Of a stretch of 42,446 bases of DNA, positions 16,376 through 36,976 are shown in pieces. How positions within the stretch are numbered: the stretch's first letter is position 1; the number at the start of each line of letters is the position of its first letter. The translations under genes and the position numbers were made by a program. Source of the stretch: a virus. Below the pieces are notes generated by a model. It did no database searches. It was not told the DNA's origin and saw nothing but the letters and a program-made list of their open reading frames with translations. The stretch covers positions 1-42,446 of IMG/VR virus record IMGVR_UViG_3300020183_000165; one strand, 5' to 3'.

Positions 16376-16426
16376 GTGCTCAGTGTAGACCTACCCCACC
16401 TACATAAGGATTTATGCAGTATTGAC

Positions 16427-16990
16427 CTAGCTGCGTTGGATAGCGACCGCACCGCCAAGGCCGCCGCGAGTGGTGCTAGTGGTAAGACAGCCCAAGACTG
16501 TCGCTAAGTGAGGCAGCACAGTCAGGGGTGTCACAGCCTCAGTAGTCGAGTTGCCTACGTCTGTCCGCCACTCAAGCTCCATCACATCTAGCTTCAGGCG
16601 TTTGAGGTCACGATTGGGCACGCCAGTCACCAATGCTTTTGAGCTGGCGCTACTGCGCAAGATTGTCGGGTCCCCCAGCAAAGCGTTGGCCAGGTCAAAC
16701 GTTCCTAATTCCACCTCGCGGGGAATCTGGCTTGCTGTATAGCTCTTGTCTCCACATTTGGCATCCTTGCGTGGCCAAGCCAATGCCTGAGTTGTTGTGG
16801 CACGGCTGCCGACCCAACCCAACGTCTCCAAACCGTTGGTTGCCGTGATCAGTGCGCGGATCTTGTTGTCACTGGTTGCAGTGCTCCACGTCAAGGTGCC
16901 CACCATCCCGTCAGCAATGCTGTCAGCACTGGCAACGCTCAAGTAGCTGTTGGCGTTACTCGCTCCGACAGTCGCAACAAGGGTGGGCAC
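16427..16990 (-). CDS. Head-tail connector (head completion), 187 aa
   Basis: GTG start at 16990 (MPTLVATVGASNANSYLSVA). The signature NSYLSVASADSIADGM, DNKIRALITATNGLETLGWV and ALAWPR matches the head-completion group sometimes annotated as DnaT-like. In these proteins the N-terminus 'ANSY-S--EAD' and the 'LAWPR' element recur. A C-terminal Thr/Gly tail follows. It acts at the portal to close the filled head. Its gene is divergent from the plus-strand gene at 17051, with the repeated motif in the shared gap. Confidence 0.7.
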   Translation of the reverse strand: MPTLVATVGASNANSYLSVASADSIADGMVGTLTWSTATSDNKIRALITATNGLETLGWVGSRATTTQALAWPRKDAKCGDKSYTASQIPREVELGTFDLANALLGDPTILRSSASSKALVTGVPNRDLKRLKLDVMELEWRTDVGNSTTEAVTPLTVLPHLATVLGCLTTSTTRGGLGGAVAIQRS

Positions 16991-17007
16991 TGGCTTCTGC
17001 GCGATTG

Positions 17008-17020
17008 CCTAGGTTTCCGG
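17008..17020. promoter_or_regulatory. Repeated 13-bp boundary motif, reference copy of nine
   Basis: CCTAGGTTTCCGG here reads CCGGAAACCTAGG on the minus strand. Related copies lie at 1857-1868, 2967-2979, 3615-3627, 7705-7716, 14443-14453, 15824-15833, 21700-21710 and 41623-41635. The consensus is CCGGMAACYTAGG. All are at gene boundaries, most just after a stop and 3-45 nt before a start. They lie only in the structural and lysis block. Whether it is a promoter element, an RNA signal or a recombination linker is not known. Confidence 0.6.
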
Positions 17021-17050
17021 GGCAACTTTGGGTGTACCCGCACATTCAAA

Positions 17051-17347
17051 GTGAGCGAAGCCGCCGAAGAACTGCAATCCACAGCCAGCGAAGTCAAACC
17101 GGCGCGTAAAAAGGCCGCAAAAGACTCCGAATCTGTCTCCGCTAATTCCCCGCGCAAATGGGAGGATGTGGTGCCGCAAATCCGGGAACTCAAGGAAGCA
17201 GGTGCAAATGTCCCTGAGATCGCAGACAAACTTGAGCTGAGCTACGTGCTTGTCAATCAAGTCATGCTGCAAAGCTACAAGATGACGGTTGACACCATCG
17301 GCGTGTTTGAGCGCCAAGAAAAGATGCGACTCGGCATTGAAGCCTGA
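17051..17347 (+). CDS. Small HTH-like protein inside the late block (plus strand)
   Basis: GTG start at 17051, 98 aa. The first 35 residues are Ala/Lys/Glu/Ser-rich and probably disordered. Residues about 37-85 (WEDVVPQIRELKEAGANVPE, then IADKLELSYVLVNQVMLQSY) form an HTH of the 'waiting for cue, then recognition helix' type. The C-terminus is charged. It lies opposite to its neighbours, between the connector and the capsid gene, and ends at a strong bidirectional terminator. A transcription or packaging regulator is plausible, and a capsid accessory role is the alternative. Function not established. Confidence 0.6.
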   Translation: MSEAAEELQSTASEVKPARKKAAKDSESVSANSPRKWEDVVPQIRELKEAGANVPEIADKLELSYVLVNQVMLQSYKMTVDTIGVFERQEKMRLGIEA

Positions 17348-17354
17348 GCAAAAG

Positions 17355-17382
17355 AAAAGCCCCCTGCTGGAGGGGGCTTTTT
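17355..17382. terminator. Strong bidirectional rho-independent terminator
   Basis: AAAAGCCCCCT (17355-17365), loop GCTGG, then AGGGGGCTTTT (17371-17381) followed by another T: an 11-bp perfect stem with A/T tails on both sides. It separates the plus-strand HTH gene from the convergent capsid gene and should stop both transcripts. Confidence 0.9.
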
Positions 17383-17396
17383 AGTGGCCTTATGGC

Positions 17397-18485
17397 TCAG
17401 GCATAAACGCCGGAGTCATAGGGTGTATTGACGAGCAGACGCACCATGGGCACGTTCTTGGCGCTGTTGTAGGCCAGGCTCCAAGAGCTGGTGGCAGCCA
17501 AGTTGCCGGAACTAGAGGCGTTGGTGGGGTTGTCGCCGTTGGCGTTCCACTTGGTTCCACTGACGTGGAAACCATAGTGGTAGTCGCAGATCAGCAGATC
17601 CTGGAAGCTGGACTTGTTGCGGTCCACTTCCACGCGCAGATCCTGCTGCATACCCTCACCGATGCAACCGCTGCCAAACAGGTAGACCGGATACTTGTTC
17701 AGGTGGGTGGCAGTGCCACCAGCGATGACGCCGATCTGATCGTCGATTACGACGTTCAGGCCAGCAAAGCGACCCACTTGGCCAGAACCAAGACCAGCGC
17801 CCACACCGCCACCGGCGTAGACAGAACCACCAGCAGATTGGACCTGCAGGTAACCGGTCTCCTCCAGATAGGCAGCCACGTTGCTGTGCATGGCGATGCC
17901 AGACAGCTCATAGCCACGCTCACCCAGAACCTGCTTGGCAGCTACCACGTTGGCAGCAGTCAGGTAGTTGGCAGCGGTAGCGGTGGTAGTGCCGGTCTTG
18001 TTGACGGTGTTGGCACCCAGAACGCCAGAACCAGCGATGTTGCCAAACAAACCGCTTAGTTGAGCGTTCAGGGTGGCAGTCTTCAGCTTGTTGATCGCAG
18101 CAGCCAGCTGGTCACGAACGTGGCTGAGGGGGTCAGCACCGGAACCCAGCTTGCTGAGGTCGTCAGTTGCGTACTGGAAGCCGCGATGCAGAACAGTCAT
18201 AATCTGCTCGGCAGCAGTGACGTTCTGGCTGGTCAGATAACCAGCGCCGCTAGTGCCCCAAGTGTTACCAGAGGTGATCACCTCTTCGGTGGGGTTGATC
18301 TTGTCAAAGAAAGGAACACGAACGCGGGTGCCACCCTCACGGGCGTCAAGAGCGCTGTTGCGCTGCACAATGCCGGCGCGGATAAACGCCGACTGCTCAA
18401 AAATGCGCTCCGAGGTGTAGCTAAGAAACTCGGGGCGGGTGATCAGGTTGGAGAGGAAAGTTCCTCCCATGTTCTGTTGGGCCAT
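17397..18485 (-). CDS. Major capsid protein
   Basis: 362 aa, ATG at 18485, preceded by AGAGAA. The order of elements (FLSYTSERIFEQSAFIRAGI, VRVPFFDKINPTEEVITSGN, ITVLHRGFQYATDDLSKLGS with variations, then AAYLEETGYLQVQSAGGSVY, GLNVVIDDQIGV and FLFGSGCIG-like strand PVYLFGSGCIGEGMQQDLRV, then C-terminal HPYG-like ICDYHYGFHVSGTKW) is that of HK97-fold capsid proteins from phages with a separate scaffold. Scaffold lies directly upstream, and portal and MuF before that. There is no sign of an internal protease domain. Confidence 0.88.
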   Translation of the reverse strand: MAQQNMGGTFLSNLITRPEFLSYTSERIFEQSAFIRAGIVQRNSALDAREGGTRVRVPFFDKINPTEEVITSGNTWGTSGAGYLTSQNVTAAEQIMTVLHRGFQYATDDLSKLGSGADPLSHVRDQLAAAINKLKTATLNAQLSGLFGNIAGSGVLGANTVNKTGTTTATAANYLTAANVVAAKQVLGERGYELSGIAMHSNVAAYLEETGYLQVQSAGGSVYAGGGVGAGLGSGQVGRFAGLNVVIDDQIGVIAGGTATHLNKYPVYLFGSGCIGEGMQQDLRVEVDRNKSSFQDLLICDYHYGFHVSGTKWNANGDNPTNASSSGNLAATSSWSLAYNSAKNVPMVRLLVNTPYDSGVYA

Positions 18486-18513
18486 TTCTCTAAAATGCGG
18501 GGTTTACCGTGAG

Positions 18514-19242
18514 TTACCCGCGACCTGCTTCAGCCTTAAGAGCTTTGGCAAGGTCTGGGTTTTCTGTTTCTAACCTCATTGCTTCCGTCAAGTTGAAGGT
18601 CTCTTGCTTGTACGGATTGACGACTCCAGGAAGGCCGGTGGCACTAGGCGCACTGCCCATTCCCATGGCTCCAGAACTGCGGAAGTGATGCTCCCAGCCA
18701 GAGCCGGGGTTGCGGAGCTGTGTCAAATATGCGTTCAGCGGTTGCTCGATGCCGTTGATAATGACCGCAGGGCCGCCATCACTGCCTCGTAGCTGGTGCT
18801 GCAGCAACCCGTAAAGCTGTTCGGGTGCAAGGGCGTTGGCCTGACCGATCTGTTGGACCGCCTGGGCCCGGAGACGCTCGGCACTCGCTTCTGCGTCCTT
18901 CGCCTGAAGCGCGGCTTCAAGCTCTCCGATCCGTTGCTGGAGACGAGCGTTATCTGCGTTCGCCTCTTCCCACAGCTTCTTGTACTCACCGCTGGCGGCG
19001 AGCTGTTGCTGTTTGCCTGACTTCAGCTCGGTCTCACGTTCCCGTAGGGCTTTCTCCAGTTCACCAAGCCGTTCATTCAGCTTGCGATTGGCCTCGCCTT
19101 TGCTGAGATTGTCCTGCTGGACAAGCTCTAACTTTCGGCGTAAAGCACCTGCGTCGTCGGAGACGGTGGTCGCTTCGGGTTGTTGATTCACGGAATCAAC
19201 TTGCTCCCCCGCTAAGGGAACACCCATGACTTCATCAGTCAT
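18514..19242 (-). CDS. Capsid scaffolding protein
   Basis: 242 aa, acidic and helical. Residues about 30-130 form a coiled coil (LRRKLELVQQDNLSKGEANR, then KLNERLGELEKALRERETEL, and onward), and the C-terminus has a charged capsid-binding type tail (LTEAMRLETENPDLAKALKA). Location directly before the capsid gene is the standard place. No protease motif is visible, so it may be removed by the host or leave intact. Confidence 0.8.
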   Translation of the reverse strand: MTDEVMGVPLAGEQVDSVNQQPEATTVSDDAGALRRKLELVQQDNLSKGEANRKLNERLGELEKALRERETELKSGKQQQLAASGEYKKLWEEANADNARLQQRIGELEAALQAKDAEASAERLRAQAVQQIGQANALAPEQLYGLLQHQLRGSDGGPAVIINGIEQPLNAYLTQLRNPGSGWEHHFRSSGAMGMGSAPSATGLPGVVNPYKQETFNLTEAMRLETENPDLAKALKAEAGRG

Positions 19243-19278
19243 GCAATAAGGTGAAACTACACCCGAGATTGCCTTTAC

Positions 19279-21674: not shown

Positions 21675-21716
21675 TGCTACGCCAAATAGGAGTCGTCATC
21701 TAGGTTTCCGCCACCC

Positions 21717-22061
21717 TTAAATAACAGTCTTGGTGGCAAAGTTGGGATCGCTCTCATTGAGGGCGTCAGCCTCAGGGCCAAACCCCGTCGCCAACAACTC
21801 CTTACTCATTGCCTCTTGGGGCAGGTGCTCACGCTTGGCCTCATGCTCCATGTCCATTGCCTCAAGTGCGGCAAGCCAGTTATCCAATGACTCCCTCGAT
21901 GAAATGCCCTTTGGGACCTTGAGGAACCTTCGCAGGTCCTTATGGTCGCGGATAAATAAGCTTGCACCGTTTAAGTAGGCGATATAAAACCGCCCATTCC
22001 AGTCGCGGCCCGTCTCGATGGTCTGATACGGGCTCAGGTGTAATCGGTCGCGCTTGGCCAT
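21717..22061 (-). CDS. Unknown 114-aa protein between terminase and portal
   Basis: ATG at 22061 overlaps the TerL stop (TAATG). MAKRDRLHLSPYQTIETGRD, then WNGRFYIAYLNGASLFIRDH and a helical C-terminus rich in Glu. No known motif. The charged, mixed alpha/beta character and location suggest a packaging or head-assembly helper. Function not established. Confidence 0.65.
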   Translation of the reverse strand: MAKRDRLHLSPYQTIETGRDWNGRFYIAYLNGASLFIRDHKDLRRFLKVPKGISSRESLDNWLAALEAMDMEHEAKREHLPQEAMSKELLATGFGPEADALNESDPNFATKTVI

Positions 22062-23416
22062 TAGTAGGTGCGGAACGAAGAACCACCAGTCGCCCAGCGG
22101 CGTAACGGTGCCAAATACGTGATCCCGTAACCCAAGGCATCCACAGGACCCGAAATGTCGTCCAAACCTCCAATCCCCTTGGTGGGCTTGCCCGACTTGT
22201 CGTAGGTCTGCTGCTCTAACGACTTGATTAAGTATTTACACCTGTTGTGGATCTTTAGGCGATCCGCCAACAGCAGCACGTTCACTGCGTTCACCCGGTC
22301 TGCAATCTGAGGGTTGGCGCTCTGGGTCTTCACCACAAATCCGCCCTTCTTCAGTAGTGAAAGGTCCGACTCCGCAGCGTTAGTGGTGGTCCGCTGCCGT
22401 GACGCAGCATCCGGTATTACTACCAAATCACCGCGCTCTACAAAGTCCCCGTATTTCTCCTGCAATAACGCCACCACCGCAGGGGTGTCCTTCGGGTGGT
22501 GCTCATCAATAACGTGGAACTCGTCTCCGCGTCGAACCATTACTTCGCAGAAGCACGCGCCTACGTTAAAGTCCATAGACACGAACACCCGATCCTCAGG
22601 TGTGATCTCCGTGTCGCACCAATGGCGATCCCTGTCGAACGGGTGGTACACCGTCGTGTTGGCCAGGTTGGTAAACTCACCCTCGATATAACTGGCAACC
22701 AGTTGACTGTCGTAGTTCTGATACAACGAGTCAACGAATCCGACGGGGAGGTAGGGGTTGTCGGTGGTCTTGGCTTTGATTAAACGGCGGTCGGGATTGT
22801 CACCTTGTTCGACGAAGGTGCGGTAGAGATATTTATAGCCTTCTGGAGTAGAAGCCAGTGCCAGCTGGGGTTTTTGGCCTCCACGGAGACGCGCTAGCAT
22901 CATCTCTGCGGCCTTTTGTGCTACCTCCATTGGTGAGGTGTCAATCTCGTCGGCTAAAACAAACGAGAGGTTTTGTCCACGAATACGGTTAAATGTTTCT
23001 GTGGCGCGGCACAGCAGTGTGACGGGGCCATGGGGTAGGTGCAGCACATATTCGGGCTGCGGGGACACGCGGAAGTCGTGCTGGATGTTGTATTTCTCCA
23101 AAAATTGGTCAAAGGAACGCATCCAAACGTCCCTCAACATGATGTTGGTGGGCTCAAATACTGCTGCAGTTGTGTTTGGGTTGTCCATACCCAAAAATAT
23201 ACTTTTGACGCACAATGCAAATGTCTTGCCGGCACCAAACCCGGCGCAATACCCCAAGATCTTGTGGTCCGTGTCGTCTACAAACTGCTTTTGGGGCTCC
23301 AGCAGATCCTTGTAGATGCGTTTTCGTAAGCTCTCGTAGCTCTCTGTGCAGCGCGTGGCCGTACGTTGCGGCTTCTCCAGCACCTTCCCGCCCGCAATCA
23401 CGCTCAGAATCGACAT
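22061..23416 (-). CDS. terL: Terminase large subunit
   Basis: 451 aa; ATG at 23416. Walker A GFGAGKT at residues 59-65, Walker B VLADEID around 153-159, and the RNaseH-like nuclease begins with VFVSMDFNVG (Asp282). A second acidic site with VIPDAA (about residues 334-339) fits the nuclease metal pocket. It pumps DNA into the head and makes the packaging cuts. Unusually, 538 bp with no convincing gene separate it from the small subunit. Confidence 0.92.
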   Translation of the reverse strand: MSILSVIAGGKVLEKPQRTATRCTESYESLRKRIYKDLLEPQKQFVDDTDHKILGYCAGFGAGKTFALCVKSIFLGMDNPNTTAAVFEPTNIMLRDVWMRSFDQFLEKYNIQHDFRVSPQPEYVLHLPHGPVTLLCRATETFNRIRGQNLSFVLADEIDTSPMEVAQKAAEMMLARLRGGQKPQLALASTPEGYKYLYRTFVEQGDNPDRRLIKAKTTDNPYLPVGFVDSLYQNYDSQLVASYIEGEFTNLANTTVYHPFDRDRHWCDTEITPEDRVFVSMDFNVGACFCEVMVRRGDEFHVIDEHHPKDTPAVVALLQEKYGDFVERGDLVVIPDAASRQRTTTNAAESDLSLLKKGGFVVKTQSANPQIADRVNAVNVLLLADRLKIHNRCKYLIKSLEQQTYDKSGKPTKGIGGLDDISGPVDALGYGITYLAPLRRWATGGSSFRTY

Positions 23417-23567
23417 CCAGGGGAAGGTGGGCTACTTAACTAGGGTAGCGACCTCGACAGAAACCCCGCAGGGCGGGGCAGGGTCCCTTGATCCTTGACG
23501 CCCCGTTCCACCGCAGCACCTCAAGCCTACCCACCTATTTAGGTGCTTCAGCTTTTCTCTAGGCCCT

Positions 23568-23599
23568 GGGGGTGGGGATAGGGGGAGGTGGGGTAAGGG
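23568..23599 (+). other. Potential G-quadruplex
   Basis: Four tracts GGGGG, GGGG, GGGGG and GGGG are separated by loops of 1, 3 and 4 nt, followed by TAAGGG. This satisfies the usual G4 rule on the plus strand, i.e. the non-template strand for a plus-strand transcript and the template strand for the large terminase message. Folding is inferred only. Confidence 0.55.
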
Positions 23600-23801
23600 T
23601 ATTGGGTTATGTGACGTAAGGGTATTAGGGGTGGGGGAAGGGTTACTTAAGGGTGCCGTTTTAGGGGGTTCGATGAGGGAGGCGCGGGGTATTGCGGCTC
23701 ACTGTGCGCTCGTTTGGTGGGGGGTAGGGCTGCCTTGGTAGGCGGCCCACCCTCTGCAGCATTACGCCCAATCAGTAATGTTGCGCCCCTACTGCAGCGG
23801 C

Positions 23802-23920: not shown

Positions 23921-23954
23921 TAACTGCGGCTGGCCCTGGTGGCCGTGGCCTGTA

Positions 23955-24287
23955 TTAGTTCCGGGGTGCGTCAGCCCCTACGGTTCGCAGGATTGCACAA
24001 GCTGCACCAACTGCGGCGCTGTATTGGCGCTCTTTAGTTGCTAGGTCTGCGATGTGCTCAAGCCGCGCCAACTGCCGCGCTACAAACTCGTTGCGCTTTT
24101 GATCGAAGGTGGCCGCGATTCGTGCAGTTGCCTTCTGTATGTAATGGTCCATGGAGCGGTCACTCAGCCCCCACCCCTCCTCTGCCGCAAATCGCAGGAT
24201 TCGCCAACGGGCAGCGCCTTGGCTAAGCAGCTCTTCAACGGCTGAGATCCGCTGCTCGACGACTGCCTTATTTGCCTTTACTGCCAC
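23955..24287 (-). CDS. terS: Terminase small subunit candidate
   Basis: GTG start at 24287, 110 aa. Residues about 8-55 (VVEQRISAVEELLSQGAARW, then RILRFAAEEGWGLSDRSMDH) form an N-terminal HTH followed by YIQKATARIAATFDQKRNEF. The C-terminus is a helical oligomerisation segment. This arrangement is common to small terminase subunits of cyanobacterial phages, and TerL follows on the same strand. The exact CTTACATAAG operator lies three bases upstream of the GTG start, so transcription may be nearly leaderless and regulated. Confidence 0.7.
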   Translation of the reverse strand: MAVKANKAVVEQRISAVEELLSQGAARWRILRFAAEEGWGLSDRSMDHYIQKATARIAATFDQKRNEFVARQLARLEHIADLATKERQYSAAVGAACAILRTVGADAPRN

Positions 24288-24290
24288 GTA

Positions 24291-24378
24291 CTTACATAAG
24301 GAACACTCATCTAGTTTGCCGCCCTTTTGCGGGTGCGGCGCTTGTTTATCTAACTTACATAAGGCACAATAGGGTTAA
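24291..24378. promoter_or_regulatory. Divergent control region with two exact CTTACATAAG operators
   Basis: Identical operators at 24291-24300 and 24354-24363 are 63 bp apart, close to six helical turns. The second sits in the spacer of a plausible plus-strand promoter, TTGTTT - 17 bp - CACAAT, that would serve the accessory genes from 24420. The first abuts the TerS start on the other strand. The geometry would allow a DNA loop. Promoter boxes are weak (4 of 6 each). Confidence 0.6.
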
Positions 24379-24419: not shown

Positions 24420-24611
24420 ATGGCCACCACATTTGCCGCCATTTTGCTGGCAGCCCTTTTGTTCCCTCTTTTGTTCCTGCTGTGGGCGTCTGAGTCCCGC
24501 GAGCAGCGGATCCGCCGCTGGCGGTGCGCAGGGGCATCGCAGCAGCAAATCGCAGACCGCATTGGCTGCAGCCGTTCAACTGTGCGCCGCGTTCTAGGGG
24601 CAGGCTGCTGA
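24420..24611 (+). CDS. Membrane-anchored HTH microprotein, 63 aa
   Basis: ATG at 24420, following the C/T-rich leader. Residues 4-22 (TFAAILLAALLFPLLFLLW) form one hydrophobic segment. Residues 28-60 (EQRIRRWRCAGASQQQIADR, then IGCSRSTVRRVL) form a complete helix-turn-helix of the resolvase/HTH_38 type. A one-pass membrane protein with a DNA-binding head is unusual for a phage of this size. It overlaps the next gene (TGATG). Target DNA and function are unknown. Confidence 0.6.
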   Translation: MATTFAAILLAALLFPLLFLLWASESREQRIRRWRCAGASQQQIADRIGCSRSTVRRVLGAGC

Positions 24612-28979: not shown

Positions 28980-29588
28980 CTAGAAGGGCATCTTGGTGGG
29001 GTCACCGCCTGTCAGGAGGGCCTCCAGGTTGTAGCCCTCTGCAACGCACTCTTCCCACGCTGCGTTGACCTGAGCAGCGACGGTGCCTTTGCGTTTACCA
29101 GGCTTCAACACCACCGTATAGCGGGTGTCCATCCCGGTGCCGGTGCGGTTCAGCTCAAAATCCCAACCAGATGGATCACTGGCCACGTCCTCGTCACTGA
29201 AGAGGGCAGCAAGGGTGTCGAGGATCGACACTTGGCTGGCTTGAAACAACTGAACGCTGTTGGTGGTGTAGTTCCACACCCAGAAGGCCAACGCTTGCTT
29301 GAGGCGGGTGGGCTGACCCTTCTGGTCAATCAGTTGGACACCCTCATCGGCTGCGCGGTCGTTGAGTTCTTTGGTGGTGGGCTCCTCAGAGAAGCGCAGA
29401 CACTTGGGGCGACCTTCAGAGCTGCGACCCCAGATCTCGTAGAAGTCGAGGGACTTGTCGCCTACAGGGGAGAAGCGAACGCTGTCCCCATCACTGAGGG
29501 AACCGGGATTTAGAAAGAGGTCGGTGCCACCAGAAGAGGACTTCTTCTCTTTGATGGCGGTGACGAAGCGATCAGAAACGAAAGGCAT
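28980..29588 (-). CDS. Single-stranded DNA-binding protein candidate, 202 aa
   Basis: ATG at 29588. The start MPFVSDRFVTAIKEKKSSSG and the segment FLNPGSLSDGDSVRFSPVGD, then DFYEIWGRSSEGRPKCLRFS, resemble the gp32/T7 gp2.5-like ssDNA-binding proteins found in cyanophages with family A polymerases. A long AEFGYNL-type tail (EGYNLEALLTGGDPTKMPF) closes it. An acidic C-terminus typical of SSBs is not evident, so the call is moderate. The gene follows a regulated promoter and is followed by the nuclease cluster. Confidence 0.6.
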   Translation of the reverse strand: MPFVSDRFVTAIKEKKSSSGGTDLFLNPGSLSDGDSVRFSPVGDKSLDFYEIWGRSSEGRPKCLRFSEEPTTKELNDRAADEGVQLIDQKGQPTRLKQALAFWVWNYTTNSVQLFQASQVSILDTLAALFSDEDVASDPSGWDFELNRTGTGMDTRYTVVLKPGKRKGTVAAQVNAAWEECVAEGYNLEALLTGGDPTKMPF

Positions 29589-29622
29589 GTCGGTGGGCTG
29601 CGCCGTTGACCTACCTAGCCTA

Positions 29623-29645
29623 CTGAGTTACTTAGGTAAGTCAAC
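29623..29645 (-). promoter_or_regulatory. Promoter with CTTAGGTAAG operator for the minus-strand operon
   Basis: TTGACT at 29640-29645 (minus strand) lies in a GGGGTTGAC context also seen at the 36948 promoter. CTTAGGTAAG (29631-29640) fits the operator consensus and lies directly between the -35 box and the start region of the ssDNA-binding gene. A good -10 box is not obvious (TAGGCT after 16 bp). Confidence 0.5.
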
Positions 29646-29886
29646 CCCTTGAGGTGGTGGGCATCAGGTCGCTGAGCAACCCTGTCCGTAGGTGCAGCAC
29701 ATCTAGCTGGCTAACGCTGCGGGCCATCACCTCAAACAGCTCACTCCGGTTCACTCCTGCTTTCATCGCAGCAGCGGTCCAGAGTTCCCATGCCTCGTCG
29801 GTGATGCTGATGGTGCGCTGCACCTTGCTAGACCCCCACGGTGTGTGAGGGGTGCGACCTCCCATGGGGCGTGACAATGCGGGCAT
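29641..29886 (-). CDS. Ribbon-helix-helix DNA-binding protein
   Basis: ATG at 29886, 81 aa. A basic N-terminal arm leads to VQRTISITDEAWELW (beta strand then helix A) and NRSELFEVMARSVSQL (helix B), the ribbon-helix-helix order. An alternative ATG lies seven codons in. Exact operators CTTACCTAAG (29901-29910, 14 nt upstream of the start) and CTTAGGTAAG (29631-29640) flank the gene on both sides. It is therefore a candidate for the regulator of the whole CTTANNTAAG set. DNA target not shown. Confidence 0.7.
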   Translation of the reverse strand: MPALSRPMGGRTPHTPWGSSKVQRTISITDEAWELWTAAAMKAGVNRSELFEVMARSVSQLDVLHLRTGLLSDLMPTTSRG

Positions 29887-29898
29887 CTCTGCGGTGCT

Positions 29899-29929
29899 GA
29901 CTTACCTAAGTCTAACGCAAATACCTAAG
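29899..29929. promoter_or_regulatory. Operator pair upstream of the RHH gene
   Basis: GACTTACCTAAGTC (29899-29912) is an inverted repeat with 6-bp arms and 2-bp centre, containing the exact CTTACCTAAG. A second weaker site, ATACCTAAG, lies at 29921-29929. The first is 13 nt from the RHH start, so it could allow autoregulation. Confidence 0.6.
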
Positions 29930-29933
29930 ACAG

Positions 29934-30602
29934 TTACTCGGCCTTGGTGAGGATGTGAAGGTGTTCTTGGATCACGTCCCAGCACTCCCCCTCCTCCACA
30001 CCCAGCTCTGCTGCAATTACAGGCAGATCCTTCACCAGCTGCTCCCCCTTCACCGTCTTCCCCGATAGCAGCCCCTTAAAGCTGTCCGCAGCCTTTACTA
30101 ACCGCTGGTGGGCCTCCACCACAAAATCAACCCCCCTGCCAGCGAGGGTGAGCCTCACCCACTTCCCAAACATCGCAGAGACGCTCTCCTCATGCTCCAA
30201 GGGGATCTCCTTGGCATTGCTCAACCCCAGGTCCAGAGCCCCCACAAAGGCCAAGAACATCTCCGCAGGGCCCATCACACCACCACTGGGTGTGCGCATC
30301 ACCTCACGGTCCTTCCAGTGGCCACTGAGGGTCTCTGGTAGCTCCCCGTTGGCCAGAGCCTCATTAAACACACCAAGGGCGTACAGAACCTTTGGGGCTG
30401 GATCCTTGAGGGTGCCCGTGGCAAAGCCGCTGATCTGACTTGAATGGATCACGTTGTCCTTGAGGGCAGCCGTAGCCAGCTTCATGAACTGAGGCTGACT
30501 CCACTGCCGGGAGAAAGCCTTGAAAGCTTTGCGGAACTGCTCACGCCCCTGAAGGCAGCTGGTGGTGATCGGCCCTGGGGGGAACTGGCTTGGCTTACCC
30601 AT
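29934..30602 (-). CDS. HTH-like regulator candidate, 222 aa
   Basis: I chose ATG at 30602 (MGKPSQFPPGPITTSCLQGR). A start at 30653 would add residues that look like a shadow of the operator region. Residues about 25-85 (REQFRKAFKAFSRQWSQPQF, then HSSQISGFATGTLKDPAPKV) fit an XRE-type HTH with an extended turn. The rest is a helical domain without a known motif. The operator variant CTTACGTAAC sits 4 nt upstream of the ATG. Repressor function is an inference. It also borders the iteron cluster, so a replication role cannot be excluded. Confidence 0.6.
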   Translation of the reverse strand: MGKPSQFPPGPITTSCLQGREQFRKAFKAFSRQWSQPQFMKLATAALKDNVIHSSQISGFATGTLKDPAPKVLYALGVFNEALANGELPETLSGHWKDREVMRTPSGGVMGPAEMFLAFVGALDLGLSNAKEIPLEHEESVSAMFGKWVRLTLAGRGVDFVVEAHQRLVKAADSFKGLLSGKTVKGEQLVKDLPVIAAELGVEEGECWDVIQEHLHILTKAE

Positions 30603-30606
30603 GATA

Positions 30607-30624
30607 CTTACGTAACTACCTAAG
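30607..30624. promoter_or_regulatory. Two operator half-matches at the HTH gene start
   Basis: CTTACGTAAC (30607-30616) and ACTACCTAAG (30615-30624) overlap by two bases, giving 1 and 2 differences from CTTANNTAAG. The first lies 4 nt upstream of the ATG at 30602. Such tandem weak sites are usual for cooperative binding. Confidence 0.5.
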
Positions 30625-30715
30625 TCATAGCACTCGTAGAGAGTGGCCGTCACTCAGGTAGGGGATCAGCTTCACTGAGTTGCTTGGACTTGTGAGACTC
30701 AAGGCTGACAAGCCA

Positions 30716-30992
30716 ACTGTCGAACAACTGTCGAACAACTGTCGAAACCCTTTCGACAGTTACTTTTATAGTCATACCAAGGGTTTTAACCCTCTAAAAC
30801 CTCCAACTGTCGAACTGTCGAACACTTTCAATTCCTTGTCTCATATCTGTCTCACTTCTCTCACCCTCCAAAACCCTCTTTTCAAAAACCTTTCGACAGT
30901 TCGACAGTTGCCCCACTCCCCCTCCCCCGCAGGGGATCCAACTGTCGAAACAACTGTCGAACAACTGTCGAAGTCCAATTTTTTTCGACAGT
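30716..30992. other. Iteron cluster, candidate replication origin
   Basis: Twelve copies of ACTGTCGA in 277 bp: forward at 30716, 30727, 30738, 30806, 30814, 30941, 30953 and 30964, and reverse at 30753, 30893, 30901 and 30985. Forward copies are often 11 bp apart, so they lie on the same helix face. Two AT-rich stretches, with an AGGGTTTTAACCCT hairpin, sit between. The primase-helicase gene starts its 3' end just beyond. Initiator protein is unknown. Confidence 0.75.
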
Positions 30993-31003
30993 TGCTCAAC
31001 CCC

Positions 31004-33376
31004 CTACACAGGCAGCTCCCACCACACCTGATCCACCCTTGGGCTCTTCAGCAAACGCCCTAAACCGTAGTCCCCAACTAGCTTCTGCAACATCCCCTTC
31101 GCCTCTTCACCGTTCTCCGCCCACTTCCTCCTCACCAAGTCGCGGGCTGTTACCTGCTGATTCTCACGTGTCTTAGCCAGCTCCACTACCTTCACCACCC
31201 ACCCCGGTAGCTCACCACCTCCCACCTGGGGGGCTAACACGTCGAACTGGTTCAAGAAAAACTGACACAGCACCGTCGCCCGCTCCATCACCTCCCGACT
31301 GATTGGCCCCCGATCTCCAATCGTCCTCATCTCATGCCCCGCACATACGTGATCTAACGCCCACAGCAACCCCGCTGCCCTCGCCAAATACCCGTGCAGC
31401 TTCATCAAAAACGCACTCCTGCTCGCATATGTGTTCTCCGCTTCCTCCGTAAACCTGTTAGCCGTCTGCTCAAACACCTCCCACGCCCCGTCACTCAAAT
31501 CCACTACCACCGTCTGCTGGGGTGCCATCGCATCCAATAAATCCACCAGCTCCAACAGCTCCTGATTGATTTCCACACCATCCCGCATCACCCTCGGTTT
31601 CACGTAAGGCGGTGAGACCCATAAGAATCGACTCCAGAATCCATCACCACTCCTCGCTGTCGCGTCATCCCCGTGCAGCAGGTCCGTCAACTTGTCCTGC
31701 TGAATCGCTCCAAATAACGACACCGCTGTCTTGGCGATCCGTATCGGCTCACTTCCCTTTCGCAGGATGTTGATGGCACCCCCACTCCACATCGACAACC
31801 ACGCCGCTCTGTCACTCGCATTGCGCCGGTACTTATCCATCGAACCAATGAACCCGCTCAGCTCGTCGTGGAAGCTCACAACCCCAGGCACGTCCTCGCG
31901 GTTCAACAGCGAACACAACGCCTCCAACGTCGCGTCCATTACTACCCGCTGCCGGGGGTAATTCGGTGGTGCTTTGTCCCCAGGACCTGCCTTCCACTCC
32001 CGCAGCTGCTCCCGATACGTCTCGTACTCAGCGCGATCTCGTTGCTCTAAAGGCCATAAAAACTGGTTGGCCACTGGCGTCTTCTTGCTACCCGCAGGCG
32101 CCACAGTCCCCATCCAGAAGATGCAGGGCTCCTTCCAACCCTTCGCTACCTGTACCCAATACCGCTTACCCAACACCGAGGCCAGTGTCGTCATAAACGG
32201 TGCTAACAAAGCGTTCTCCGACACAGGAAATGCTTTCGCTCGATCTACCAACAGATCGGCTAGCTGCTTCGGAAAGACGCTGCTCAAAGTAAAGGCTGCT
32301 GCACGGGCTTCTGCCCACTGCCAGTAACTCCGCTGACGGAGTTCCTTCACCAGTGGGTCATTCTCATTCTCGGACTCCTTTGACCGAACTTCACGCTCAA
32401 GTGGCCATGGGCACACCCAACCCTTCCGCTGCGCCTCCCGAAACAAGTGCCAAATCGTCTTGCGCTGCTCTGGTGCATCCACCAACGACATCGCAACCCT
32501 CTTCAACTCCCAGTGCTGTTGGCCCCAACCCGCTGCCTTCGCCAGCTCAGCAGCAACGTCTGGGCCAAACTCATGCACCATCGCCGCTAATACATCCCGC
32601 GCTGCCTCATACGTCCCACTTCCTGGTGCCTCACGCTCAGGGCAGAACCGCAGCGCCTCCTGCACCACCTGCCTCTTCTCTACCGCCGTCATCCGTTCGT
32701 AGTGCTTGCCCCGCTGCGCATGTGGCAAGTCCTCATCGCTTGGCTCAGTGCGCAGCACACTCTCCGCTGGCCGCACTAGCGCCATTAACTGCGGCAGCTC
32801 AAACCGCTCACCCGTGGTGCTCATCACCCGCGACTGCTCACCCGTCTTCGGATGCACCCCGCCTGCAAGTCTGAGCACTTGGCAAGGCTTACTCAGTGAG
32901 GTGTCTACCTTTACCCCCTCAAGGAACCTCTCAACGTGCTTGAACAGCATTTTCTGCGCTGCCGTGAACGCAGTCGTGCTGCAGGGCGCCCGCAGAAACC
33001 AGTAATTATGCACTGACTTACCACCAGTCCACAGCTGAAGCGATGGCCTCGGCAGACCGCAAACCTCCCACTGCGACAGCTTTTCCTCCAAGGGCGCTGG
33101 CCCGTCGTCCTCGTAGAACAGCGCCCGGCAAAACTTAATGTCGTCGTTCTTGGTGCCTCCTGGGTTCAGCAGGAATCCCAGTGACAGGTCAGCGTTGTGA
33201 ACCATCGCCGCCTCCACCGCTGATCGCGCATCCTCGGGCAAAGCCCCGACCGTGTTGACGTGGATGCAGGTGCCCCTCTCCTTAGGGAACAGCGCCAGAA
33301 TCACCGGCTCGTCAGGCTTGATACCAGAAAGAAACAGGTGGTCCTGCGCCTGCAGCCAGTCGATCATCGGGGGCAC
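31004..33376 (-). CDS. Primase-polymerase/helicase fusion (AEP + DUF3987-like)
   Basis: GTG at 33376 (790 aa), or ATG three codons in. Residues 80-160 show the archaeo-eukaryotic primase pattern: FYEDD (Glu89/Asp91), SVH (residues 121-123) and later D158 in VKVDTSLSKP. The C-terminal half is a DUF3987-type helicase domain: degenerate Walker A in GTVAPAGSKKTP (residues about 423-434), then VVSFHDELSGF near 500 as Walker B, and the conserved WSRFLWVSPP later. It should unwind and prime at the origin. Host-free replication fits with the phage-encoded polymerase. Confidence 0.75.
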   Translation of the reverse strand: MPPMIDWLQAQDHLFLSGIKPDEPVILALFPKERGTCIHVNTVGALPEDARSAVEAAMVHNADLSLGFLLNPGGTKNDDIKFCRALFYEDDGPAPLEEKLSQWEVCGLPRPSLQLWTGGKSVHNYWFLRAPCSTTAFTAAQKMLFKHVERFLEGVKVDTSLSKPCQVLRLAGGVHPKTGEQSRVMSTTGERFELPQLMALVRPAESVLRTEPSDEDLPHAQRGKHYERMTAVEKRQVVQEALRFCPEREAPGSGTYEAARDVLAAMVHEFGPDVAAELAKAAGWGQQHWELKRVAMSLVDAPEQRKTIWHLFREAQRKGWVCPWPLEREVRSKESENENDPLVKELRQRSYWQWAEARAAAFTLSSVFPKQLADLLVDRAKAFPVSENALLAPFMTTLASVLGKRYWVQVAKGWKEPCIFWMGTVAPAGSKKTPVANQFLWPLEQRDRAEYETYREQLREWKAGPGDKAPPNYPRQRVVMDATLEALCSLLNREDVPGVVSFHDELSGFIGSMDKYRRNASDRAAWLSMWSGGAINILRKGSEPIRIAKTAVSLFGAIQQDKLTDLLHGDDATARSGDGFWSRFLWVSPPYVKPRVMRDGVEINQELLELVDLLDAMAPQQTVVVDLSDGAWEVFEQTANRFTEEAENTYASRSAFLMKLHGYLARAAGLLWALDHVCAGHEMRTIGDRGPISREVMERATVLCQFFLNQFDVLAPQVGGGELPGWVVKVVELAKTRENQQVTARDLVRRKWAENGEEAKGMLQKLVGDYGLGRLLKSPRVDQVWWELPV

Positions 33377-33472
33377 CCTCGGAACTTCAACCTAGATAAG
33401 GTGGCCACCCTCGGCGCCACAATCAAGGATTCCAGCCCGTCGCTTTGCGACCTAAGGTGAGACCCTTACTCA

Positions 33473-33482
33473 GTTACTTAAC
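33473..33482. promoter_or_regulatory. Operator variant GTTACTTAAC
   Basis: It lies directly next to the ATG at 33483 and differs from CTTANNTAAG in the two outer bases. Upstream CCTTACTCAG may be another half site. It sits in the 106-bp divergent region between primase-helicase and the 105-aa gene. Confidence 0.45.
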
Positions 33483-33800
33483 ATGATGACCCGCGACCGC
33501 TACGAATCCGAGGCGCAGGAGTTCTTTCGGCGTAACCCCCATGTCTATGACGCCTTCAGGCTGCTCGCTTACAAGGCCATTGCTGCTGGTAAAACACGCT
33601 GCTCGCAGCGTCTGCTTTGGGAGCGACTGCGCTGGGAGCTTTACATCAGCAGCGATGCCAACGTGGCGGATTACGCCCTAAACAACAACTTCGTGCGCTT
33701 CGCCGCCAAGCAGCTTGAGGCTGAGGGCGAGCTGCCAAGTGGGTTTTTTCAGTTCCGCGAGCGCCATCACCTGCTGGATTCGGTTGACCTGGGGGCGTAA
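33483..33800 (+). CDS. Conserved phage protein, 105 aa
   Basis: ATG at 33483 or 33486. The pattern EAQEFFRRNPHVYDAFRLLA, then AGKTRCSQRLLWERLRWEL, FVRFAAKQLEAEGELPSG and FRERHHLLDSVDLGA recurs in phage and prophage replication regions as an unnamed family. Length fits. It is basic and could bind DNA. Possible leaderless start with the operator directly before it. Confidence 0.55.
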   Translation: MMTRDRYESEAQEFFRRNPHVYDAFRLLAYKAIAAGKTRCSQRLLWERLRWELYISSDANVADYALNNNFVRFAAKQLEAEGELPSGFFQFRERHHLLDSVDLGA

Positions 33801-33856
33801 AGGCAGTACCTTATCTGAGTAAGGGTCTCGCATTAGGCCCGCTACCCCTAGTACCT

Positions 33857-34228: not shown

Positions 34229-34461
34229 CGCACTTACCCCGCTCTCCCTGGTTAACAGGGCGCCTTTACAACTTGGACGACTTGCACACCACAGCGCTGG
34301 TCTGCATGGACCGCCGGGAGGTGGTGCTTAAGGAGCTTCTTAACCAGTTCCGTCATCTCTCCGACGACGATATTAAAAGCGTTGTTCGTAACGCGGAGTT
34401 TCTCTACACCTGCAACGAGGCCATGTTCAACCAGTACCGCCAACGACAGGGGGTTGCATGA
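34225..34461 (+). CDS. Small unknown protein, 78 aa
   Basis: ATG at 34225 overlaps the preceding stop (ATGA). MTHLPRSPWLTGRLYNLDDL, then VVLKELLNQFRHLSDDDIKS with a helical C-terminus. No known family. Its stop overlaps the next gene's ATG, so the four genes up to the polymerase are coupled. Confidence 0.55.
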   Translation: MTHLPRSPWLTGRLYNLDDLHTTALVCMDRREVVLKELLNQFRHLSDDDIKSVVRNAEFLYTCNEAMFNQYRQRQGVA

Positions 34462-34628
34462 AAACCCTCAAACCCTCATCACCGCGCACTTATCGCGTCA
34501 CTACTTCCCTGAGATCTTTTGTTGTGATGGCCAGCAGCGTGGCTGCAGCCATATTGACCGCCAAAGAGTTGTACCCAGCTGAGACCGTCATCTCAGTCCT
34601 TAATTCGCCCGAGTGGCTGGATGATTGA
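34458..34628 (+). CDS. Small protein with hydrophobic helix, 56 aa
   Basis: ATG at 34458 overlaps the preceding stop (ATGA), and its TGA overlaps the polymerase ATG (TGATG). MKTLKPSSPRTYRVTTSLRS, then FVVMASSVAAAILTAKELYP (hydrophobic segment) and an acidic tail ending PEWLDD. Tight coupling on both sides argues that it is real. Confidence 0.6.
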   Translation: MKTLKPSSPRTYRVTTSLRSFVVMASSVAAAILTAKELYPAETVISVLNSPEWLDD

Positions 34629-36436
34629 TGGCACTCCTGGAATCTTTCAAGGAGCTGGGCAAAACAATTTGCTTGGACATGGAGACCGCCATGGCTCCAA
34701 TGTCATTCAAGGGCAGAGAGCATGTGCGCCTTCTGCAGCTTCTCTCTGATGAAGGTGAGCTTTGGTACGACCTAGCCACCTTCACTGAGCCCGATTGGAT
34801 GGAGCTGACGGTGCTGCTCCAAGACCCCACTATTACTTGGGTTGGCCAGAACATCGCCTACGACTACCGATGCCTCCTTGGTTGCGGCATCCGTCTTGTG
34901 GGTCGGTTGGAAGACACCATGATCCAGTCGGCCTTGCTGAACAACGGGCTGCCCAACGTCTCCAACTCCCTTGAGGCCATTGCGCTGAGGGTGCTCAAGA
35001 TTCAACTCGATAAGACTCTGCAGAAGCAGGACTGGATGAGTGCCGAGCTGAACGAGGCCGACCTCGCCTACGCCATGGGTGACGTTCGCATCACATGGCA
35101 GGCGTGGCGTCAGCAGCAAGCTGAGATTAAGAACGCTGGCCTGCAGCGCGTCTACGACTTGGAGTGCACTCTCATCCCCGCCGTTGTGGAGATGGAGCAC
35201 ACCGGCATGTTGGTGGATCAGCAGCACGCCCTCACAGCCATCGCACAGCTAGAAGAGGAGATTTGCCTTAGCAAAGGCGAGTTCCTGGAGCTGCTCGATT
35301 CCCAACTGCGGGAACTTCACGGCGATGGCCTACCCCGTGATGACGACGGCAGCTACAACCTTCGTGCAAAAAAGGAACTTAAACGGGAAGGTGGCAGACC
35401 TGCGGGTTTCAACATCAACAGTCCTACGCAGGTGCTAGGTCATCTGGTCTCCATCGGTCTAGACCCGCGAGATCCCAAAACAAACAAGCTCACTACCGAC
35501 AAAAAAATTCTCAGGCCCCTGGCCGACAACCCAGTAGTGTTCAGCCTCTTGGCCTACAAGCGAGCCGAGAAGCGACGCTCAATGATTCAAACTATCTTGG
35601 ACAAACACATCCAAGATGATGGGCGGATTCATCCCCGATTTGCACCTTTGCAAACTGGTACAGGTAGGTTCAGTAGTTCAAATCCTAATGCACAGCAGTT
35701 TCCTCGTGAAGCATTTATTAGGGACATTATTGTTGCTGCACATGCGTATGAACTGGTGGTGATGGATGTTAAAAACATGGAGATGGGTGTGGCGTGTTCG
35801 GAACCCATCGCCAATGAGTCAATCATGCAGAGCGCTTTGCGTGATCAGACTGACCTACACACCCTCACCGGCCACCTGATCTTTCACATCCCCATGGAGG
35901 AAGTGGGTAAAGAGCAGCGTCAGCGGGCCAAGAGTTGCAACTTTGGTTTGCTCTACGGCTCAGGTGCCCTTGGCCTCAAGGAATACTTCGCCAGCTTCGG
36001 CAACTTCATCACTGAAGACGAAGCTAAAGAGTTCCGTAACGCTTGGCTGAACGCTTACCCCGGCATGGCCAAATGGCACGCCTGGGCTAAGCGGGAAGTT
36101 GAGGGTGGTGAGGTGCGGATGGTTGATGGCCGCCGTAGGTGGCTAGTGGACGACATGGCCCGCCACACCGTCTTGCTCAACAACATCGTCCAAGGCACCG
36201 CCGCTTCCATTGTCAAACAAGCCATGGTTGGGATCTGGTCGCGTTTACCTAACGGAGCACGGCTTGTCGCTCAGATCCATGACGAATTGATCGTTGAAGC
36301 ACCTGAGGGCGCTGGTGAAGAGGTGCTTGAAATCATGCAACGCCAGCTTCTTCTTGCTGGGCGACTGATCATTGGCGACTCCGTTGACATGGTTGGCGAG
36401 GGCTCCGTGGCGAAGTCATGGGGTCAAGCCAAATAG
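34628..36436 (+). CDS. polA: Family A DNA polymerase with 3'-5' exonuclease domain
   Basis: ATG at 34628, 602 aa; no 5' nuclease domain. Exonuclease residues: D17-x-E19 in CLDMETA, N75...D79 in GQNIAYDY, and Y148...D152 in YAMGDV. Polymerase: motif A is DVKNME (Asp380, Glu385) in place of the usual DYSQIE; motif B gives R431-x-R-A-K435-SCNF439GLLY443; motif C is H551-D-E553 in QIHDEL. F at 439 fits discrimination against dideoxynucleotides. Replicates the phage genome together with the AEP-helicase. The motif A change is discussed as a finding. Confidence 0.92.
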   Translation: MALLESFKELGKTICLDMETAMAPMSFKGREHVRLLQLLSDEGELWYDLATFTEPDWMELTVLLQDPTITWVGQNIAYDYRCLLGCGIRLVGRLEDTMIQSALLNNGLPNVSNSLEAIALRVLKIQLDKTLQKQDWMSAELNEADLAYAMGDVRITWQAWRQQQAEIKNAGLQRVYDLECTLIPAVVEMEHTGMLVDQQHALTAIAQLEEEICLSKGEFLELLDSQLRELHGDGLPRDDDGSYNLRAKKELKREGGRPAGFNINSPTQVLGHLVSIGLDPRDPKTNKLTTDKKILRPLADNPVVFSLLAYKRAEKRRSMIQTILDKHIQDDGRIHPRFAPLQTGTGRFSSSNPNAQQFPREAFIRDIIVAAHAYELVVMDVKNMEMGVACSEPIANESIMQSALRDQTDLHTLTGHLIFHIPMEEVGKEQRQRAKSCNFGLLYGSGALGLKEYFASFGNFITEDEAKEFRNAWLNAYPGMAKWHAWAKREVEGGEVRMVDGRRRWLVDDMARHTVLLNNIVQGTAASIVKQAMVGIWSRLPNGARLVAQIHDELIVEAPEGAGEEVLEIMQRQLLLAGRLIIGDSVDMVGEGSVAKSWGQAK

Positions 36437-36448
36437 AACTACACACAC

Positions 36449-36673
36449 ATGAAAGACAACGACCCCATCAGCCCTGACCACTACCGCTCTGGCGGCATAG
36501 AGTGTGTGGAGGCTATTCGGGCCTCGCTAGGTGACGACCGTTTCTGTGACTACTGCCAAGGGAACGTTCAAAAGTACGTCTGGAGGTGGCGCCATAAGAA
36601 CGGCGTTGAAGACCTAAAAAAGGCAAGCGTCTACCTCAACTGGCTTATTGAGGCCGCCGAGTCTCAGCGGTAG
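36449..36673 (+). CDS. DUF3310 family protein
   Basis: 74 aa with the typical order: DPISPDHYRSGGIECVEAIR, then LGDDRFCDYCQGNVQKYVWR and a WRHKNGVEDLKKASVYLNWL segment. DUF3310 (SaV-like) proteins are common in phages, often near polymerase genes, and are suspected to touch nucleotide or replication enzymes. Function is not known for sure. Confidence 0.8.
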   Translation: MKDNDPISPDHYRSGGIECVEAIRASLGDDRFCDYCQGNVQKYVWRWRHKNGVEDLKKASVYLNWLIEAAESQR

Positions 36674-36699
36674 ACTGGGCTTACTTACTTGAGTAACGA

Positions 36700-36912
36700 G
36701 TGGACGATGCCGCTCACCTAAGGCAGCAGGCTATGGCCAAGCTGCGGGCGGCTGTCTCGTTTGCTACTGCGGGTGAGTTGCATCGTGCTGCCGAGTTCCT
36801 CGATTTTGCACGCGAGGTTCGCTCCGGCAAGCGAAGACTCAGGGCGGCCACTCGCGCTGACAGCAGACGGAAGGCAGTGGATCGTTACGGTTACTACGGT
36901 ACTGACCGCTGA
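36700..36912 (+). CDS. Small basic protein, 70 aa
   Basis: GTG at 36700, or ATG at 36733. MDDAAHLRQQAMAKLRAAVS, then ELHRAAEFLDFAREVRSGKR and a very basic C-terminus with ADSRRKAVDRYG. Operator variant CTTACTTGAG lies at 36684-36693, just before the start. Might bind nucleic acid. No known family. Confidence 0.5.
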   Translation: MDDAAHLRQQAMAKLRAAVSFATAGELHRAAEFLDFAREVRSGKRRLRAATRADSRRKAVDRYGYYGTDR

Positions 36913-36947
36913 GACCAACGGGACTCGGTAAAAGTGCTAGAAAGGGG

Positions 36948-36976
36948 TTGACCCTTACTTAAGGATTCCATACGAT
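36948..36976 (+). promoter_or_regulatory. Sigma-70 promoter with CTTACTTAAG operator in the spacer (integrase unit)
   Basis: TTGACC (36948-36953), 17 bp, TACGAT (36971-36976). The exact operator CTTACTTAAG covers 36954-36963, directly next to the -35 box. Predicted start of transcription is near 36983, about 20 nt before the GTG at 37003. A repressor bound here would block RNA polymerase. This is the best supported case that the motif is an operator. Confidence 0.7.

Follow-up and report, generated by a model that had tools for sequence, protein, structure and literature searches.

A dispersed palindromic word before the operon heads of a probable picocyanobacterial phage and its candidate ribbon-helix-helix reader

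Dispersed phage operators and ribbon-helix-helix (RHH) repressors are both already known kinds. In the Cluster A mycobacteriophages (L5, Bxb1), according to the part of the description available to us, one phage repressor reads one word genome-wide, and this word varies between groups along with the repressor; these stoperators are 13-14 bp long, lack dyad symmetry, are bound by a monomer, lie mostly off promoters, are oriented with transcription and occur in 20-30 copies (PMC6550527). F55 of SSV1 is a small RHH protein with a repeated word in early promoters and its own, where it represses in the carrier state (PMC9608457), and TrcR of Anabaena is an RHH autorepressor whose site overlaps the -10 boxes of several promoters (PMC10272220), as stated in the accessible portions of these two reports. 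Here, we analyzed a palindrome, CTTANNTAAG, that recurs in the whole of IMG/VR virus record IMGVR_UViG_3300020183_000165 (42,446 bases; hereafter, the window). We propose with moderate confidence that its copies are operators of one phage-encoded, autoregulated global repressor, most likely an 81-amino-acid RHH protein encoded at 29641-29886, which would probably silence the prophage.

The palindrome in the window and at orthologous operon heads

Exact CTTANNTAAG occurs five times in the window, at 24291, 24354, 29631, 29901 and 36954, as an earlier sequence-only reading of this DNA had reported. Dinucleotide shuffles (n = 100) gave 0.22 expected copies, which bears out its estimate of fewer than one by chance; none of the shuffles reached five, and a reversed control pattern was absent from the window. 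Allowing one mismatch gave 21 matches including the exact ones, 16 of them with a mismatch, versus 8.1 expected. Since the exact copies lie far beyond chance and the mismatched ones reach only about twice the expectation, the latter were judged one by one. The five one-mismatch copies that had been named (16399, 23642, 30607, 33810 and 36684) do exist but are only five of the 16, and the earlier list was therefore a selected one. Absent from it are matches inside called genes (13370, 18055, 22223, 35267 and 37999) and two well-placed sites, at 23435 before the terminase gene and at 33391 before the primase gene. Proximity to a start codon (within 60 bp) held for all five exact copies and four of the five named mismatched ones, but not for 23642, about 225 bp from the terminase start.

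When all four-base gapped palindromes of the form W-Nk-rc(W) with gaps of 0-8 were counted in a pool of six records (the window, G001, G002, G003, G010 and G017; 211,111 bases), CTTA-N2-TAAG was the most enriched, with 21 copies versus 0.79 expected. In single records it headed the ranking for the window, G001 and G002, came second in G017, and was not first in G003 (2 copies) or G010 (1 copy). CTTA-N6-TAAG reached 9 versus 0.79 in the same pool, and the CTTA-Nk-TAAG spacings peaked at k = 2 (21), 6 (9), 10 (4), 14 (5) and 18 (4) against 0.79 each; the peaks beyond k = 6 rest on 4-5 counts each, gaps of 21 and 29 reach the same count of 4, and orthologous sites enter the tally repeatedly. The peaks step by 4 bp, a register in keeping with RHH dimers bound in arrays, as on the tandem short palindromes that MetJ binds. 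Seven records without a detected RHH gene (161,187 bases, partial and mostly structural genes) held no CTTA-N2-TAAG, and CTTA-N6-TAAG three times versus 0.49 expected.

A scoring matrix built from 21 exact sites of the six records returned 15 strong sites (score >10) in the window versus 2.3 expected; the matrix is part-trained on the window, whose five exact sites match by construction, leaving the other ten as the informative ones, of which 22223, 35267 and 39809 fall within called genes. Eleven of the 15 strong sites are non-coding, non-coding DNA making up 12% of the window (binomial 6e-8), so the word is not, as an objection foreseen by the sequence-only reading would have it, equally common in coding sequence.

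Window genes were called by hand from open reading frames, and for 50 of them the best match within 110 bp upstream was compared with that of the orthologues in five other records, a good site having at most one core mismatch. Good sites preceded 12 of the 50. A good site was present in 32 of 40 cases for orthologues of the genes with a site and in 1 of 83 for those of the remaining genes (Fisher 7e-21); the records are related (terminase identity to the window 80-96% in the four that have a terminase), so these counts are not fully independent. The single exception among the 83, 24611 in G002, follows a gene whose relative went undetected there, and the eight misses comprise four at the small sigma-like gene, two at the terminase and one each at the single-strand DNA-binding (SSB)-like and helix-turn-helix (HTH) genes. 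The operon heads marked are those of the terminase, the SSB-like, RHH and XRE-like HTH genes, the primase, the polymerase block and the integrase block; one word in several copies thus stands before several operons and is conserved in relatives. The proposal that one set links terminase, accessory genes, RHH, HTH, integrase and small sigma genes stands for most of these heads. It does not extend to the integrase gene itself, which like the large sigma and endolysin genes has no site within 110 bp upstream (the integrase block has one only before its head gene at 37003), and it is weakly supported for the small sigma-like gene, whose site at 16399 is not kept at the same strength in any of four orthologues.

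The sites are as follows; those at 30607, 36684, 33810, 33391, 23435 and 23642 are partly backed by relatives.

24291-24300: operator CTTACATAAG, exact, 3 bp before the start of the gene like that for the terminase small subunit (24287, minus strand); at a matching offset from the large-subunit gene in relatives
24354-24363: operator CTTACATAAG, exact, in TTGTTT-17-CACAAT before the 63-amino-acid HTH gene (24420, plus strand); backed by relatives
29631-29640: operator CTTAGGTAAG, exact, in the spacer of TTGACT-16-TAGGCT before the SSB-like gene (29588, minus strand); backed by relatives
29901-29910: operator CTTACCTAAG, exact, within the 14-bp palindrome GACTTACCTAAGTC, before the RHH gene (29886, minus strand); backed by relatives
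30607-30624: double operator CTTACGTAAC and ACTACCTAAG, 8 bp apart, at the start of the 222-amino-acid HTH gene (30602, minus strand), in ATGACT-16-TATCAT
36954-36963: operator CTTACTTAAG, exact, in the spacer of TTGACC-17-TACGAT at the head of the integrase block; shared by G001 and G002
36684-36697: operator CTTACTTGAGTAAC, CTTA-N6-TAAC variant, before gene 36733; supported by mismatch scan, score and relatives
33810-33823: operator CTTATCTGAGTAAG, CTTA-N6-TAAG variant, before gene 33857; supported by mismatch scan, score and relatives
33391-33400: operator-like CCTAGATAAG, about 15 bp before the primase/helicase start (33376, minus strand), divergent from 33483; compared only through orthologues of 33483, the primase having none in these records
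23435-23444: operator-like CTTAACTAGG, about 19 bp before the terminase large subunit gene (23416, minus strand); similar offset in relatives
23642-23651: operator-like GTTACTTAAG, about 225-235 bp before the terminase large subunit gene; same offset in loci L017 (G001), L022 (G002) and L021; score <10
16399-16408: operator-like CCTACATAAG, upstream of the small sigma-like gene; support weak
38136-38145: weak site GTTACGTAAA; support, score only

Sites 24291 and 24354 lie 63 bp apart in a divergent promoter region. A comparable arrangement was found in relatives, where exact sites lie 850-1015 bases upstream of the terminase gene in 11 of the 21 loci with enough upstream sequence, often paired at a spacing of 63-65 bp if partners with one mismatch are included; in 12 of 22 loci a site mismatched at one position or none also starts 21-29 bases before the terminase start. 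Upstream of the SSB-like gene, a TTGACN-16/17-TANNNT match overlaps the site region in 13 of 28 loci (best-fitting match taken, without a chance control); its spacer holds CTTA- or CCTA-type boxes in 11 of them and is CGTA-type in two (L228 and L229); the remaining loci have a weaker -35 box or no promoter match was found.

Two further sequence features lie among these sites. A 15-base inverted repeat, GAGACCCTTACTCAG, at 33459-33473 and 33815-33829 on opposite strands joins two operator regions around gene 33483-33800, and a G-rich stretch with GGGTTA- and GGGGTAAGGG-like runs occupies 23440-23700, upstream of the terminase.

Word change between lineages and the HTH/RHH/SSB-like unit

Related viral contigs were gathered by scans with the RHH, HTH, terminase and polymerase proteins; a primase query found no relatives among viral contigs, and a scan with a group-specific promoter pattern of the SSB-like gene returned three contigs only, all already in the set. 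Several of the RHH/HTH loci are near-copies of one another. In lineages whose RHH strand reads KRCRS, CCTANNTAG and CCTANNCAGG stand at the same places as the palindrome of the window. G027, with RHH strand KRTRN, has CCTANNTAGG as its top palindrome (4 versus 0.17 expected), G028, with a diverged RHH protein, has CTTATATAAG (CTTA-N2-TAAG, 10 versus 1.66), and G024 has CTAGCTAG (4 versus 0.09). Variant words across lineages thus include CTTANNTAAG, CCTANN[TC]AGG, CTAGCTAG and a CGTA type. With up to one mismatch, G029 holds nine CCTANNTAGG-type sites (seven non-coding) and three CTTANNTAAG-type sites (none non-coding), and G001 holds 11 of the CCTA type (seven non-coding) and 24 of the CTTA type (15 non-coding). 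A word that differs at many places of a genome at once points to one trans-acting reader. That the sites would form one operator set read by one trans-acting protein is well supported, because they occupy conserved places before orthologous operons, are placed in or beside promoter-like sequences and are replaced by a different word at the same places elsewhere.

The genes concerned, and others to which we refer, are:

29641-29886, minus strand: 81-amino-acid RHH protein, the favoured putative binder
29934-30602, minus strand: 222-amino-acid XRE/lambda-repressor-like HTH protein, putative partner or rival binder
28980-29588, minus strand: SSB-like protein, third gene of the unit (phrog_1192, E = 4.4e-6; no Pfam match)
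31004-33376, minus strand: DUF3987 primase/helicase-like protein
22061-23416, minus strand: terminase large subunit
23955-24287, minus strand: probable terminase small subunit, by position (no family match)
24420-24611, plus strand: 63-amino-acid HTH_38 protein
15824-16375, minus strand: small sigma-like protein (Sigma70_r2, 24.3 bits; cut-off 24)
37211-38065, plus strand: tyrosine integrase (PF00589 at 37577-38026, E = 1.2e-20)

The window has no Rfam family at gathering score and no tRNA, and its part from 20000 to 42446 has no nucleotide match in the phage collection. Eight direct 13-nt repeats with core AACTGTCGAA and many inverted copies were found at 30713-30994, separating the HTH gene from the primase gene; this region is at the edge of a sharp GC-skew dip and is a candidate replication origin with iterons. 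Other short repeats (AAAGTGCGGC and AACAGTT, by eye) lie upstream of the unit in loci L236 and L234, and the iteron word thus seems to change between lineages too.

RHH and HTH relatives, each searched for, occur in the same 13 of 24 records. The HTH gene directly precedes the RHH gene in 33 of the 35 RHH loci examined (36 were found), and 23 of 24 HTH loci have an RHH gene downstream, the remaining one ending within the HTH gene. All 18 records with RHH or HTH have an SSB-like gene no more than about 1 kb from the unit, and operators precede the HTH, RHH and SSB-like genes in most of the loci read. A phage-made binder, either RHH or HTH, is therefore what these comparisons support, because the two form a conserved unit with operators and the word has almost no copies in eight possible host genomes.

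The choice of the RHH protein as the probable reader draws on G024 (L236; 30,960 bp, partial), which we regard as the best single fact in its favour over the HTH protein. In this record the RHH gene is present (E = 7e-32), and a search of all 30,960 bases with E up to 10 or 50 found no HTH relative, the record being partial and a distant copy possible; the same HTH model detects HTH genes at E = 1e-83 to 1e-88 in three further records, which themselves belong to the model. Before the RHH gene there remains, by reading, a short tail similar to the C terminus of HTH. Sites are nevertheless retained before the RHH gene, before the SSB-like gene, at the position of the HTH promoter in relatives and 12 bp before called gene 22944. 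The HTH position of G024 is taken by an unrelated, roughly 80-residue frame that contains several cysteines and a repeated motif. The AlphaFold2 model of the window protein has helices at 30-43 and 47-58 after the presumed strand (predicted local distance difference test score, 84.5) and no strand of at least 3 residues in the monomer; its fold matches are mostly RHH proteins (Rv0298, MazE6, Arc, MatP, NikA, PutA and ORF56). Pfam RHH_1 scored 15.0 bits (cut-off 20.5) against the relative in L236, and NCBIfam has no family for either the RHH or the HTH protein.

According to the mechanism that we propose, RHH dimers would bind M-CTTA-NN-TAAG-K boxes, often overlapping in 4- or 8-bp steps, and boxes bound across the -35 and -10 elements of operon-head promoters, or in the interval separating these elements, would block RNA polymerase. 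Because an operator precedes each gene of the HTH/RHH/SSB-like unit, the unit is presumably autoregulated and would repress itself through these sites, with the XRE-like HTH protein probably acting as partner or modulator of the RHH repressor. Repression would silence the prophage globally and confer immunity, and induction would release it.

Several observations weigh against this reading. The RHH assignment is one of them: Pfam RHH_1 gave the 81-amino-acid protein 13.0 bits, below the cut-off of 20.5 (E = 0.11), all fold matches of its model are weak (E at least 0.22), and a profile search of the PDB placed designed helical repeats first, with MazE6, Rv0298 and CopG at 0.018-0.38. Protein and word are also imperfectly coupled. 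The KRQRT strand occurs with both CTTA- and CGTA-type sites and KTQRT with CCTA-type sites, so the strand does not cleanly predict the word; a residue of the HTH helix tracks it about equally well (T with CTTA, K with CCTA, with exceptions), and covariation over 35 loci does not decide between the two proteins. With up to one mismatch, G027 has 18 CCTA-type and 19 CTTA-type sites, about equal, G026 has six and one, neither clear, and in five pooled KRCRS records CCTANNTAGG occurs 5 times versus 0.52 expected and is not among the top palindromes. G024 is one case in a partial record, and locus L238 has an RHH relative without HTH, without an adjoining SSB-like gene and without a CTTA- or CCTA-type palindrome in 6.8 kb. 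A tyrosine integrase was not seen in 9 of 19 records, which may be incomplete and in which other recombinases were not sought. As to promoter placement, finally, TTGACC-17-TACGAT at 36948-36976 does frame site 36954 with -35 and -10 boxes as claimed, but over 15 kb of the window promoter-like matches number 4 versus 4.7 by chance, of which two (30628 and 36948) hold an operator in the spacer.

Life style and other roles for the sites

The window is probably the record of a temperate phage of picocyanobacteria. It encodes a tyrosine integrase, as do 10 of the 19 records examined, and its nearest named terminases are those of Synechococcus and Prochlorococcus siphoviruses. Among 388 cyanobacterial genomes from the class to which a Pantanalinema assembly belongs, 52, each 1.6-3.7 Mb in size, have distant HTH relatives. 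In the genome contigs scanned, no prophage of the family was found: a pattern scan gave no HTH relative, and terminases reach at most 38% identity among the best 80 of 195. This absence is weak evidence. A conserved relative of the HTH protein was observed in the small cyanobacterial genomes L270-L279, two of which were scanned and showed no Pfam family above cut-off; it may be an uncharacterised host protein of the phage HTH family. RHH-profile matches were also observed in cyanobacterial genomes of 3.8-8.9 Mb (for example, L283, L284 and L287-L289), often in open frames of about 1,200-1,900 residues.

Given that the regulon covers replication, packaging and integrase operons and that the phage has an integrase, global silencing of the prophage is the likely purpose of the set. 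The sequence-only reading had one repressor holding all of the listed genes silent in the lysogen: the single operator set is well supported and silencing is plausible, but "all" was too wide. The same set could instead act as a timing switch within the lytic cycle, for early shut-off or to delay the late genes, with no part in lysogeny, a possibility that we consider real yet doubtful. G027 and G028 (46-48 kb) have the unit and sites and no tyrosine integrase, and the constant company of the SSB-like gene within about 1 kb of the unit would fit such a switch. Early, late and integrase blocks all bear sites, however, an arrangement better suited to global silencing, and the window and its nearest relatives have an integrase whose block is itself under an operator.

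A second alternative keeps the silencing role and exchanges the binder: the 222-amino-acid XRE-like HTH protein would be the operator-binding, cI-like repressor and the RHH protein accessory or antagonist. The HTH protein has no Pfam family; its model matched ClgR, XRE-family proteins and C.BclI best in Foldseek, an XRE/lambda-like fold at weak significance (probability at most 0.97, best E = 0.49). HSSQ or a close variant is conserved at the presumed recognition helix of the phage HTH proteins, with HNSQ in the host relatives read, and restriction-modification C proteins of XRE-like fold bind short palindromes. The distant host relatives and the T/K residue that follows the word in most groups speak for this protein as well. 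Retention of RHH and sites without HTH in G024 and the better fit of the 4-bp register to RHH arrays nevertheless make it rather unlikely as the reader; ten of its host relatives have no CTTANNTAAG within 200 bp upstream, which is weak evidence in the same direction.

That the word serves as a promoter element for a phage sigma factor is improbable. The window does encode a full sigma-70 protein (38550-39668, near the integrase) and the small region-2-only sigma-like protein (15824-16375, inside the late block), and operator halves overlap -35 and -10 boxes. Relatives of the full sigma occur in 9 of 25 records by tblastn (Sigma70_r2 in 9 of 25, a somewhat different set, by profile), making it a common gene of the phage family, and relatives of the small one in 15 of 25. 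Yet G027 and G028, which may be incomplete, have the unit and enriched sites with no Sigma70_r2 match, the site is palindromic, lies at varied distances from starts and also at start codons (24291 and 30607), and the sigma gene is itself siteless. In G022 and G029 a sigma gene accompanies CCTA-type sites, so sigma and site type are not simply linked, which disfavours a promoter element.

Phages do borrow host factors, and the sites might belong to a host transcription factor, which we consider very improbable. In eight possible host genomes bearing the HTH relative (about 22 Mb), MCTTANNTAAGK has 7 copies versus 75 of the reversed control, and versus 5 in the 42-kb window; so few host copies, part of which base or codon composition may explain, make the set unlike a host regulon. 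Four host places carrying the word showed no match to window proteins at E = 1e-3, and between phage lineages the word changes together with the RHH/HTH unit. The exact copies, the relatives, the conservation at operon heads and the controls make it hardly credible that the sites reflect chance, base composition or a dispersed partition or packaging signal, although the mismatched copies by themselves are only about twofold in excess; a partition role would call for a ParA partner.

Relation to known systems

Integrase-bearing cyanosiphoviruses exist, yet by 2018 no Synechococcus or Prochlorococcus isolate had been found to carry an inducible prophage, according to the available part of one account (PMC6157547). 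The present set offers a repressor candidate, a partner and about a dozen testable sites for this puzzle. More tentatively, and leaning slightly against it ourselves, we envisage a bipartite immunity system in which an RHH repressor and an XRE-like partner, with the SSB-like gene, would govern most operon heads of picocyanobacterial temperate siphoviruses through a lattice of palindromes in 4-bp steps, the change of word defining immunity groups. If so, separate immunity groups of uncultured cyanophages could be read from sequence alone; the word may predict such groups in metagenomes and would make a tractable case of genome-wide co-evolution of regulator and operators.

The nearest named phages by terminase are the cyanosiphoviruses KBS-S-2A, S-H1, P-HS2/MED4-184 and MED4-117 (about 40% identity). 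The phage collection gave no HTH match at E = 0.01 and five marginal RHH-like matches (E = 0.6-0.8), none of them in these four. A literature search that left most subscription journals and preprints outside its range returned no report of the word or of an RHH repressor in a cyanophage.

Arc and Mnt of P22, MetJ and CopG resemble the candidate in fold, Arc being among the fold matches and CopG among the weak profile matches, and no close sequence relation to them was found; to our knowledge, Arc is not the main lysogeny repressor of P22. SSV1 F55, likened here by description, differs in belonging to an archaeal (Sulfolobus spindle-shaped) virus and in its 11-nt word, ATAGATAGAGT, and the accessible portion of the report describes no XRE partner (PMC9608457). 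TrcR of Anabaena, in the part of its description available, is a host gene with an 8-bp word resembling TGTAGTAT and a translation-related regulon (PMC10272220). The sites of the window do not share the defining features of the Cluster A stoperators: they are palindromes at operon heads, number about a dozen and go with an RHH/XRE pair. What appears to be new is the phage family, the RHH/XRE unit and the change between lineages of a palindromic operon-head word.

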